Shown piece after piece: positions 11,612 to 13,571 of a DNA stretch of 64,000 nucleotides. The notes beneath the pieces are model-generated. The model was not told the origin of the DNA, did no database searches, and saw nothing but the letters and a program-made list of their open reading frames with translations. The stretch is from Ancylomarina subtilis (GTDB lineage Bacteria; Bacteroidota; Bacteroidia; Bacteroidales; Marinifilaceae), in contig NZ_SHKN01000001.1 of assembly GCF_004217115.1 (NCBI RefSeq), forward strand, positions 747,781 through 811,780, in the 5' to 3' direction. Within the stretch, counting starts at the first letter, position 1. Each line of letters begins with the position of its first letter. The position numbers and the translations under genes are program-made.

Positions 11612-12136
11612 ATGAAAACAATATTCAAAAAACTACTGGGTTCATTCTTATTAATCGTTCTGGTAACAAGCCTTTCAGCACAAAAAAAAGAGGAACGAAA
11701 AGCTCAAAAAATTAAAGTCTATCAAGAATGCCTGCAACTAATTAAAAGTGGCGAATTCAAATTCGAAGCTGACAAAGCTTATCCTCAAAGTGGATCTTAC
11801 ATCGATCTTACTACGAATTATGGCTTTATTAAAGTTTCTGAGAATAATTGTCTATGCGATTTACCTTTTTTCGGCCGCGCTTATCATGCGGATTATGGTG
11901 GTGATGCCGGAATGGATTTCGAAGGTGAAATGCTAAACAAAGAACTCACTCGTGATGATAAAAAAATGAAAGTGACTTATACCTTTGATGTCAAAGATAA
12001 AGAGGTTTTCACTGTAATTATCGAGGCGTTTTCAAAAAAATCGGTATCCACAATTGTTCGATGTAACAGCAAAGCTCACATCTCCTATTCAGGACAAATT
12101 GTGGAACTTAAAAAGGATGATCCAGATGCTGAATAA
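11612..12136 (+). CDS. Secreted DUF4251 domain protein
   Basis: 174 residues with an N-terminal signal peptide (hydrophobic SFLLIVLVTSL, likely cleavage after SLSA near residue 22). The rest matches the DUF4251 pattern of Bacteroidota: a helix after QECLQLIKSGEFKFEADKAYP, then beta strands GSYIDLTTNYGFIKVSENNCLCDLPFFGRA and later a C-terminal VRCNSKAHISYSGQI. Two cysteines, at NNCLC, stand close together. Predicted periplasmic or outer-membrane associated; function unknown. Its own terminator is not obvious, and the next element is the asnA promoter. Confidence 0.8.
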   Translation: MKTIFKKLLGSFLLIVLVTSLSAQKKEERKAQKIKVYQECLQLIKSGEFKFEADKAYPQSGSYIDLTTNYGFIKVSENNCLCDLPFFGRAYHADYGGDAGMDFEGEMLNKELTRDDKKMKVTYTFDVKDKEVFTVIIEAFSKKSVSTIVRCNSKAHISYSGQIVELKKDDPDAE

Positions 12137-12180
12137 GCAGTATAATCCATTTTCATTTTAAGAAAATAGACAAAATCAAT

Positions 12181-12211
12181 TTTGTTATTCAAAAAAACTT
12201 GTCTAGTTTAG
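12181..12211 (+). promoter_or_regulatory. asnA leader promoter
   Basis: Bacteroidota-type promoter: TTTG at 12181-12184, a 19-bp spacer, and TAGTTTAG at 12204-12211 (TAnnTTTG with one mismatch). The predicted transcription start, near 12217, lies just ahead of the first leader peptide at 12234. Confidence 0.6.
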
Positions 12212-12233
12212 CATCCACAAATAAAGAAATCTA

Positions 12234-12308
12234 ATGAGATCATTCAACAACAATAATGCTTTTAATAATTTGATGACTAATTGTTCATCGAAAATGGAAA
12301 GCTTATAG
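12234..12308 (+). CDS. Asn-rich leader peptide 1 of asnA (24 aa)
   Basis: Short frame ATG 12234 to TAG 12308. It encodes 24 residues beginning MRSFNNNNAFNNLMTN, with seven asparagines (residues 5-8, 11, 12, 16), four of them consecutive. It follows the promoter by about 17 nt and is followed by an intrinsic terminator at 12341. The last codons (12296-12308) can pair with the terminator's 5' arm, so ribosome position would choose between terminator and antiterminator. It is too short for a stable protein; the role as a regulatory leader peptide is inferred from codon content and geometry. Confidence 0.8.
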   Translation: MRSFNNNNAFNNLMTNCSSKMESL

Positions 12309-12340
12309 TTGATTGTCAAAATATACCTACACTATCTAAA

Positions 12341-12367
12341 GCCTTCCCCTACCGGAAGGCTTTTTTT
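12341..12367 (+). terminator. Attenuator terminator 1 in the asnA leader
   Basis: GCCTTCC (12341-12347) pairs with GGAAGGC (12354-12360), extended by flanking A-T pairs, then TTTTTTT (12361-12367). A competing antiterminator pairs 12296-12304 with 12339-12347 (one mismatch) and TAG 12306-12308 with CTA 12336-12338. Confidence 0.88.
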
Positions 12368-12388
12368 ATAAACTCATATTGCAGAACC

Positions 12389-12436
12389 ATGTCTTTTTTC
12401 AATTCAAATAATAATATCAATAATAATTTTCCCTGA
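12389..12436 (+). CDS. Asn-rich leader peptide 2 of asnA (15 aa)
   Basis: ATG 12389 to TGA 12436 encodes MSFFNSNNNINNNFP, with seven asparagines in fifteen residues, all coded by AAT. It lies 21 nt after the T-run of attenuator 1. Its upstream context (TTTTTTTATAA ... AACCATG) resembles that in front of asnA itself, suggesting the leader module was duplicated. A segment starting right after the stop codon can pair with terminator 2's 5' arm. A regulatory leader peptide is the best reading; it is inferred, not proven. Confidence 0.82.
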   Translation: MSFFNSNNNINNNFP

Positions 12437-12469
12437 GGGTGAGAAAAGATATCGACATGCACTTGTTTA

Positions 12470-12499
12470 GCCTTTCCTCACTACGGAAAGGCTTTTTTT
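12470..12499 (+). terminator. Attenuator terminator 2 in the asnA leader
   Basis: GCCTTTCC (12470-12477) pairs with GGAAAGGC (12485-12492), followed by TTTTTTT (12493-12499), 35 nt before the asnA start codon. The competing antiterminator pairs 12438-12448 with 12472-12482 over eleven positions with one mismatch (and one G-U pair). Confidence 0.88.
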
Positions 12500-12533
12500 A
12501 TAATCTATTTTTAAAACTATTAACTGAAAAACC

Positions 12534-13571
12534 ATGAAAGATTTAATTATTCCAAAGGATTACAAGAGTTCACTCGACTTGGATCAAACTGAAAAAGCAA
12601 TTAAGCTCATTAAGGATCAATTCCAATTGCAACTGTCTTCAGAATTGAGGTTAAAAAGGGTTACAGCTCCATTAATCGTAATGAAACATACAGGTCTTAA
12701 CGATGATTTAAACGGTGTGGAACGTCCGGTTGCCTTCCCAATTAAGGCTTTAGGAGATGACAAAGCTGAAGTGGTCCATTCACTTGCGAAATGGAAACGC
12801 TACATGCTTGGGGAACTTAGTATTCCTGCCGGACAAGGACTTTATACCGACATGAATGCCCTTCGTCCCGATGAGGATTTCACCAATATTCATTCCTTAT
12901 ATGTCGATCAGTGGGATTGGGAGAAAAGCATCACTAAAGAAGAACGAAGCTTGGATACACTGAAAGAAACCGTTAAACAAATCTATGCCGCACTGAAACG
13001 CACAGCCTATATTCTTCAGGAATACTACCCAAGTATTCAAGCTCAGTTACCCGAAGAGATCTGCTTCATTCATGCAGAAGAACTCTTATTACAATATCCC
13101 GAATTGAGCCCCAAAGAAAGAGAGACTAAGGTCGCCAAAGAATTTGGAGCTGTCTTTATTATCGGCATTGGAAGCGAAATGGTCAATGGCGAGCCACATG
13201 ATGGTCGTGCTCCTGACTATGACGACTGGAGCACGCCTACTGTAAGCGGGTATAAAGGTTTAAATGGTGATATTATTTTATGGAACCCTGTGCTTGAAAT
13301 TGCTTTTGAAATCTCATCAATGGGGATTCGTGTAGATGAAGAAGCTTTAGAAAAACAATTGATCCTTAGAGGTGCCGAAGAACGAAAAACGCTTATGTTT
13401 CACCAAAAGCTGCTGGCAGGAGAATTGCCTTATTCAATTGGTGGAGGAATTGGACAATCGCGTCTGTGCATGTTTCTGCTTCAAAAAGCTCATATTGGCG
13501 AGGTACAATCAAGTATCTGGCCTGAAGAGATGAGACAAAAGTGTCAGGAATCCGGTATTTTCATTCTCTAA
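12534..13571 (+). CDS. asnA: Aspartate--ammonia ligase (asparagine synthetase A)
   Basis: ATP- and ammonia-dependent synthesis of asparagine from aspartate, a class II tRNA-synthetase-like enzyme. Diagnostic segments are VERPVAFPIK, VVHSLAKWKRYML, YTDMNALRPDE, SVYVDQWDWE-like YVDQWDWEKSI, GAVFIIGIG, HDGRAPDYDDW and GGGIGQSRLCMFLLQK near the C terminus. The 345 residues compare with 330 in E. coli. It is preceded by two tandem Asn-rich leader peptides with attenuator hairpins, indicating control by asparaginyl-tRNA supply, and followed by a long hairpin terminator at 13607. Confidence 0.97.
   Translation: MKDLIIPKDYKSSLDLDQTEKAIKLIKDQFQLQLSSELRLKRVTAPLIVMKHTGLNDDLNGVERPVAFPIKALGDDKAEVVHSLAKWKRYMLGELSIPAGQGLYTDMNALRPDEDFTNIHSLYVDQWDWEKSITKEERSLDTLKETVKQIYAALKRTAYILQEYYPSIQAQLPEEICFIHAEELLLQYPELSPKERETKVAKEFGAVFIIGIGSEMVNGEPHDGRAPDYDDWSTPTVSGYKGLNGDIILWNPVLEIAFEISSMGIRVDEEALEKQLILRGAEERKTLMFHQKLLAGELPYSIGGGIGQSRLCMFLLQKAHIGEVQSSIWPEEMRQKCQESGIFIL

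Follow-up and report, generated by a model that had tools for sequence, protein, structure and literature searches.

Two asparagine-rich leader ORFs with competing hairpins precede asnA in Ancylomarina subtilis and suggest tandem ribosome-mediated attenuation

The 64,000-nucleotide stretch of the Ancylomarina subtilis genome that we analysed (hereafter the window) carries asnA at 12534-13571 on the + strand, and profile matches identify its product as an aspartate-ammonia ligase (Pfam AsnA, E 2.9e-102; TIGR00669, 413.7 bits against a cut-off of 292.8). A DUF4251 gene (11612-12136) is the upstream neighbour of the asnA leader region, whose features all lie on the + strand. The leader region begins with a Bacteroidota-type promoter (12180-12211) that consists of a -33 element, TTTTG, at 12180-12184 and a -7 element, TAGTTTAG, at 12204-12211. 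A first short ORF (12234-12308; ATG at 12234, TAG at 12308) encodes a 24-residue peptide with seven asparagines, MRSFNNNNAFNNLMTNCSSKMESL, and is followed by an intrinsic terminator at 12338-12363. A second ORF (12389-12436; ATG at 12389, TGA at 12436) encodes 15 residues, again with seven asparagines, MSFFNSNNNINNNFP, ends in Phe-Pro-stop and is followed by a second intrinsic terminator at 12469-12493. We call these ORF-terminator units type 1 and type 2 modules, respectively. Each terminator has a run of seven T, and an independent terminator scan of 11900-12900 recovered both (two found, against a mean of 0.5 in shuffled sequences). Both modules thus combine a short leader ORF rich in codons for asparagine, the product of asnA, with a predicted intrinsic terminator between that ORF and the gene. 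The initial annotation had described the two ORFs (7 of 24 and 7 of 15 residues Asn) and their terminators in these terms, and direct reading and a script both returned them.

The promoter proposed in that annotation has its -33 and -7 elements in place, and its position is kept among relatives. In all 21 tandem loci of the family, a -7 box with five or six of the six fixed bases of TAnnTTTG, which we take to be the Bacteroidota promoter consensus, lies 16-22 nt 5' of leader 1. Because the box is so close, leader 1 would start very near the predicted transcription start. No comparable -7 box, judged by match to TAnnTTTG, was found in these 21 tandems in the 13-26 nt that separate terminator 1 from leader 2, where the best match was 4/6 in 17 loci and 5/6 in four. 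Leader 2 would therefore be reached only by polymerase that has passed terminator 1, barring an unusual promoter missed here, and the region reads as one predicted promoter, two ORF-terminator units and then asnA.

Each terminator shares its 5' side with an alternative pairing. The first antiterminator arm, A1 (GGAAAGCTT, 12296-12304), lies within the last sense codons of leader 1 and pairs with AAGCCTTCC (12339-12347), inside the 5' arm of terminator 1 (12338-12347). The second, A2 (GGTGAGAAAAG, 12438-12448), lies immediately 3' of the leader 2 stop codon and pairs with CTTTCCTCACT (12472-12482), inside the 5' side of terminator 2, which runs to 12482. Each pairing has one mismatch, as the initial annotation had claimed. 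For each of 75 modules, the strongest pairing between leader region and terminator 5' arm was compared with 200 dinucleotide shuffles; L201, L257, L261 and the first detector match of L238 (one that its sibling L202 lacks) were excluded from this set. The A1 pairing of the window (-9.0 kcal/mol) beat its shuffles (p 0.015); the A2 pairing of the window (-6.8 kcal/mol) was no better than its own (p 0.25), and this pairing is stronger in most sister loci than in the window. Across the 75 modules, the antiterminator duplex reached p<=0.05 in 66 and p<=0.005 in 26. The nine modules above 0.05 were the second modules of L001 (the window locus), L002, L004, L014 and L237 (p 0.82, leaving this antiterminator unsupported), together with L202, L230, L233 and L238. 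L202 has an entirely different stem, CGATACAA, matched by TTGTATCG in its leader, and its score (p 0.08) misses 0.05.

A swap test with 20,000 permutations then asked if leaders prefer the terminator arm of their own module over those of other modules. It used 44 of 46 type 1 and 33 of 37 type 2 modules, since identical rows were merged and the type 2 module of L240, whose second terminator was not parsed, was lost. Outside the family, the cognate value exceeded all 20,000 permutations for both types (19 modules of type 1, 15 of type 2). Within the family, 2,570 (type 1) and 8,227 (type 2) of the 20,000 permutations reached the observed value and there was no covariation, a null signal that we attribute to arms that hardly vary there. 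Pairings that would exclude the terminator and that changed in a compensatory way were found outside the family and not within it, and module 2 of the window is weak in this respect.

The position of the arms fits a stalled-ribosome mechanism. The leading edge of a ribosome lies about 10-11 nt beyond the codon in its A site. With the search started at the last Asn codon, the distance from that codon to the arm had a median of 11.5 nt in type 1 (IQR 10-14) and, with the same starting point, of 12 nt in type 2 (IQR 11-13); when the whole leader was searched, none of the 75 modules had a best arm starting more than 31 nt before, or more than 5 nt after, the last base of the stop codon. The arm would be just clear of a ribosome whose A site holds the last Asn codon, and covered by one at the leader's end. 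The logic of stalled and finishing ribosomes set out in the initial annotation agrees with an arm that begins some 12 nt beyond that codon; the exceptions are eight of 37 type 2 ORFs, identified by eye, that overrun the arm.

We consider it very likely, from these features of the DNA, that the asnA leader acts by ribosome-mediated attenuation sensing charged tRNA-Asn, and we think it probable that both modules are active in series. RNA polymerase would start at the single promoter and transcribe leader 1. When charged tRNA-Asn is plentiful, the ribosome would reach the stop codon of leader 1 and mask A1, so that terminator 1 forms and transcription ends. When charged tRNA-Asn is scarce, the ribosome would stall on the Asn codons with its leading edge just short of A1, and the free A1 would pair with the 5' arm of terminator 1, letting polymerase read through. 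Leader 2, A2 and terminator 2 would then rerun the test ahead of asnA. Expression of asnA would be the product of two read-through probabilities, which predicts that asnA is expressed little under basal conditions and responds more steeply than it would behind a single attenuator. The arrangement first noted at this locus is confirmed, and the interpretation attached to it, that starvation for Asn-tRNA would switch asnA on and that two gates would steepen the response, is supported in its logic.

We used a module detector that called a short ORF with at least four Asn in 12 residues whose stop codon was followed, after 3-75 nt, by a terminator with eight pairs or more. Of 56 family genomes, 29 had an asnA, which in one was only a short fragment. 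In the remaining 28, the upstream region carried both modules in 21, one in five (L024-L028) and none in two (L022, L023). The strict detector called 20 of the 21 tandems, and L009 was added by eye. These tandems span six genera, with AsnA identities of 76-100% to the window protein, and Asn-rich leaders and terminators are kept in all 21. The initial annotation had proposed aligning related loci for conserved Asn-rich ORFs and compensatory changes, and had named the lack of conserved Asn codons or pairings in close relatives as grounds for abandoning the idea. That comparison was run and the lack was not seen: the leaders and terminators were conserved and the arms mostly beat shuffles, while the expected compensatory changes appeared outside the family and not within it.

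Two family loci depart from the common layout. In the second module of L009, an extra C in the proline stretch takes leader 2 past its usual stop and past the arm; the extra C is possibly a sequencing error, as this is a draft genome. In L026 (G015), which has a single Asn module, 282 nt separate the terminator from asnA and contain repeated AAATTTTAGATT-like motifs, perhaps an insertion between leader and gene.

The reading frames of both leaders are under selection. Over 20 family loci, leader 1 had a pN/pS of 0.44, and its two shifted frames gave 1.07 and 0.77; leader 2, over 19 family loci, had 0.45, and its shifted frames gave 1.40 and 0.81. The codon alignments were made without L018 and, for leader 2, also without L009. 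These values support, without proving, translation of both leaders.

Beyond the family, the tandem is sparse and scattered. A search of the order found asnA in 127 of 295 genomes, including the window's own genome and two others of its family. We examined 129 asnA upstream regions outside the family, most of the places listed, and the detector matched in 23 (L201 being doubtful) and in none of the other 106. Two Asn-rich leaders were present in 12 of the 129, spread over seven families: five were called by the detector (L197, L203, L232, L237, L239), and in seven more a second Asn-rich ORF was recognized by eye (L200, L205, L206, L231, L236, L240, L241). The double detector match in L238 was taken as a single module. 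In a sample of the phylum, asnA was found in 24 of 392 genomes, and 20 upstream regions (L253 and L268 come from the window's own order) gave four detector matches, of which the single modules L249 and L259 look real and L257 and L261 are doubtful. Named genomes contributed a further 80 asnA loci (61-67% identity), and the module was found in none of them; contig ends shortened the upstream stretch in a few, leaving 81 nt in L039. Six changes of the tandem label were required on a tree of 66 AsnA proteins, at least three of them forced by well-supported branches. Given this patchy distribution, repeated gain, loss and transfer are inseparable.

These comparisons bear on whether both modules sense asparagine. 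One module alone might do so, the other then being a degenerating duplicate or simply an extra terminator that reduces leakage. The weak second antiterminator of the window favors this explanation, as do several lineages with a single module, of type 1 (L024-L028) or of type 2 (L230, L233-L235). Against it, leader 2 is under the same coding selection as leader 1 (pN/pS 0.45), both modules are retained in 21 of 21 tandem loci across six genera, most type 2 arms of relatives pair well, and the two leaders recur in distant AsnA clades. We therefore regard a single sensor as unlikely and favor two active modules in series.

The two modules differ in ways that argue against a recent copy of one by the other. 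By our own sorting, all tandems seen have type 1 upstream and type 2 downstream. Leaders of type 1 are the longer ones, and most of them contain the arm within their last sense codons; a type 2 leader is short (NNNN..PP) and has its arm near or after the stop codon. Modules of either type also occur alone, type 1 in L024-L028 and type 2 in L230, L233, L234 and L235. The fixed order, together with singles of both types, makes the tandem unlike a fresh duplication. Types were assigned by a script from the peptide ending, with eight further type 2 modules recognized by eye (L009, L200, L205, L206, L231, L236, L240, L241). The numbers per type and the PPP comparison below are therefore partly hand-sorted and count related loci separately.

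Type 1 modules carry an additional hairpin, P1 (TTGATGA/TCATCGA, 12270-12291 in the window), directly 5' of the arm, with the last Asn codons of the leader in or beside its loop. In 20 family sequences, 98% of alignment cells in P1 were paired, compared with at most 54% in slid controls, and one pair occurs as GC, AU and GU. Out of 500 shuffles, two were as high for the percentage paired, two for the covariation score and five for cells changed on both sides; the number of pairs changed on both sides (77/500) and of further pair types (83/500) did not go beyond shuffles. P1 also folds more stably than expected, with a mean z of -2.2; of the 43 distinct type 1 segments, 34 have z < -1. Because it does not overlap the antiterminator arm, we interpret P1 as a possible RNA polymerase pause hairpin that would let the ribosome catch up.

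Type 2 modules are instead marked by prolines. By script, 34 of 37 type 2 modules and 8 of 46 type 1 modules have a proline within the six residues that come after the Asn run; the script misses the prolines of L014 and L015, which bring two more type 2 modules by eye. In the eight type 2 ORFs that overrun the A arm (L009, L200, L205, L206, L231, L236, L240, L241), the stop-codon logic does not apply as it stands. A PPP run is present in five of these eight (L200, L206, L231, L240, L241) and in none of the 29 with a stop at the arm (Fisher p 1.3e-4, with relatives counted separately and the eight picked by eye). Translation termination is slow after a C-terminal proline, and one idea is that Pro-stop or PPP slows the ribosome over the arm and favors termination. 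The Pro codons may equally serve an RNA pairing. A candidate protector pairing in type 2 has 97% of its cells paired, with a mean folding z of -0.14 and no covariation beyond shuffles (353/500).

The prolines could also mean that leader 2 adds a second signal, charged tRNA-Pro or EF-P status besides asparagine, much as the proline-rich mgtP leader of Salmonella is described as answering low proline (PMC3641672). The enrichment of proline after the Asn run in type 2 (34/37 versus 8/46) speaks for such a signal. However, the arm distances imply that a ribosome at the Pro codons would cover the A arm and so favor termination rather than read-through, leader 2 has at most four Pro codons there, fewer than its Asn codons, and pairing offers these codons another role. 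A proline signal thus seems improbable to us, more so than a single sensor, and we retain asparagine as the signal of both modules.

The module is specific to asnA among the asparagine genes compared. An Asn-rich ORF with a terminator was found in none of 30 family asnB upstream regions examined; the asnB region L146 has an Asn-rich ORF and no terminator. A covariance model of the type 1 module was built from 20 family leaders, which as training rows match by construction, and at E < 1e-10 its matches were confined to asnA leaders, those of the 21 genomes with a tandem. At lower significance (E up to 0.1) it picked up four of the single modules at asnA, four second modules and a further 13 places. 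Among the 12 of these 13 places that were examined, seven are other attenuators, Thr/Ile-rich before a thrA-like aspartokinase (two), Phe/Tyr-rich before pheA (four) and before an aminotransferase (one), and five showed nothing clear.

T-boxes control the Asn genes of Firmicutes, and by that precedent the leader RNA might sense directly, as a T-box for uncharged tRNA-Asn or as an asparagine riboswitch. The window has no Rfam match at gathering score, T-boxes are absent among the eight weak Rfam matches up to E 5 in 12100-12560, and both leader frames show conservation of the encoded peptide, so we give direct RNA sensing very little credence beside leader-peptide attenuation. The Rfam Phe_leader (RF01859) does match weakly at 12246-12369, across leader 1 and terminator 1 (31.4 bits, E 0.0021); this fits the general layout of an attenuator, although the score is far below the gathering score of 55 and the codons here are for Asn rather than Phe.

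We measured the background of such modules in the window and 20 stretches of 20 kb from its own genome (464 kb, or 928 kb over both strands). The detector returned three matches, namely both window modules and one ORF with a TTG start in L225. A composition scan for all 20 amino acids over the 464 kb gave 39 matches; the two Asn ones were those of the window, and the other 37 were unremarkable by eye. Chance Asn-richness was rejected on this background and on pN/pS. Asn codons in conserved columns are nearly all AAT (113 of 118 in leader 1, 72 of 74 in leader 2), as A/T-rich DNA would yield, yet the idea that the ORFs are a by-product of A/T-rich intergenic sequence, with terminators that belong elsewhere, deserves almost no weight given a single other detector match in 928 kb, the selected reading frames, arms that track stem changes outside the family, and the lack of the module in 30 asnB regions and 80 more distant asnA loci.

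Similar leaders occur before other amino acid genes in the family. A pheA match was found in 35 of 56 family genomes, and a detector for Phe/Tyr/Trp-rich leaders found two modules in 17 of 30 pheA upstream regions, one in 11 and none in two, counts in which the L368 pair looks spurious and one of the two empty regions is cut by a contig end. The antiterminator test gave p<=0.05 in 37 of 45 pheA modules. The window's own genome has a pheA tandem, L345 (G000:C1, upstream of 1426617; p 0.005 and 0.015), with the leaders MTVLNSYFWFYFYFIN and ..MNTSMSYNYFFYFWFFYFRSDPRPYDII, the start of the second being inferred from sister loci. Other pheA tandems in which each leader has its own terminator are L341-L344, L347-L349, L352-L356, L358, L359 and L362. 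The pheA tandem in this genome means that same-signal tandem attenuation appears at two unrelated genes there. In three genomes of the genus (L371-L373), a Thr/Ile-rich leader and a terminator precede the thrA-like aspartokinase gene. At 17 loci in five other family genera (L374-L390), there is a Met/Ile/Thr-rich ORF, and the scan caught no terminator after it. Separately, at L337 (G035:C8:88400-90200), the aromatic-rich leaders MKTVTTYISNFYYFWFYFYPTR and MSNKAFTYRFYFYYFWFNTNRAGCLIP, each followed by a terminator, lie before a gene that we take to be aminotransferase-like.

The trp, his, leu, thr and pheA operons of Proteobacteria are controlled by ribosome-mediated transcription attenuators. 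The asnA leader shares with them a short leader ORF in which codons for the amino acid being made form a run, a terminator, a mutually exclusive antiterminator and a stalled-ribosome geometry. It differs in its Asn codons and its gene, asnA, in having two serial modules for one amino acid, in its occurrence in Bacteroidota, and in a type 1 hairpin, P1, that adjoins the antiterminator arm without overlapping it.

Tandem attenuators for two different signals are already known from Salmonella mgtCBR, which is described as a singular example and in which mgtM and mgtP answer ATP and proline, additively (PMC3641672). The two systems are alike in having two leader ORFs per leader, each with its own attenuation decision, and unlike in that both asnA leaders are rich in codons for the same amino acid and lie ahead of a biosynthetic gene (PMC3641672). 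With Asn runs in both leaders, the asnA region, judged from its sequence, does not look like a detector of two different signals. Leader-peptide attenuation itself has already been proposed in the same phylum, in Flavobacterium psychrophilum, where the section concerned reports 'strong clues' for it before amino acid biosynthesis operons, lists conserved 5' elements before pheA, hisG and others, and does not mention asnA or tandems (PMC9723704). The initial annotation knew of no described tandem attenuator for asnA, and we likewise found no ribosome-mediated attenuator for this gene in the open-licence literature, where absence is weak evidence.

We tentatively extend these observations to a broader model, which we rate at somewhat less than an even chance: same-signal tandem attenuation, as at asnA and pheA, may be general in this lineage, with modules that are specialized rather than simple copies: P1 of module 1, at its last Asn codons, would synchronize polymerase and ribosome, the prolines of module 2 (close to or at the stop, or as a PPP run where that stop is absent) would hold the finished ribosome on the arm, and the serial gates would multiply sensitivity to amino acid shortage. 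If attenuation by leader peptides operates as proposed, asparagine would join the amino acids sensed in this way, and the same decision would be taken twice in series, in at least two pathways of one genome. Bacteroidota ribosomes mostly initiate without Shine-Dalgarno sites, and the mechanism would imply tight coupling of transcription and translation in this phylum. Two serial gates would be another route to a steep response.
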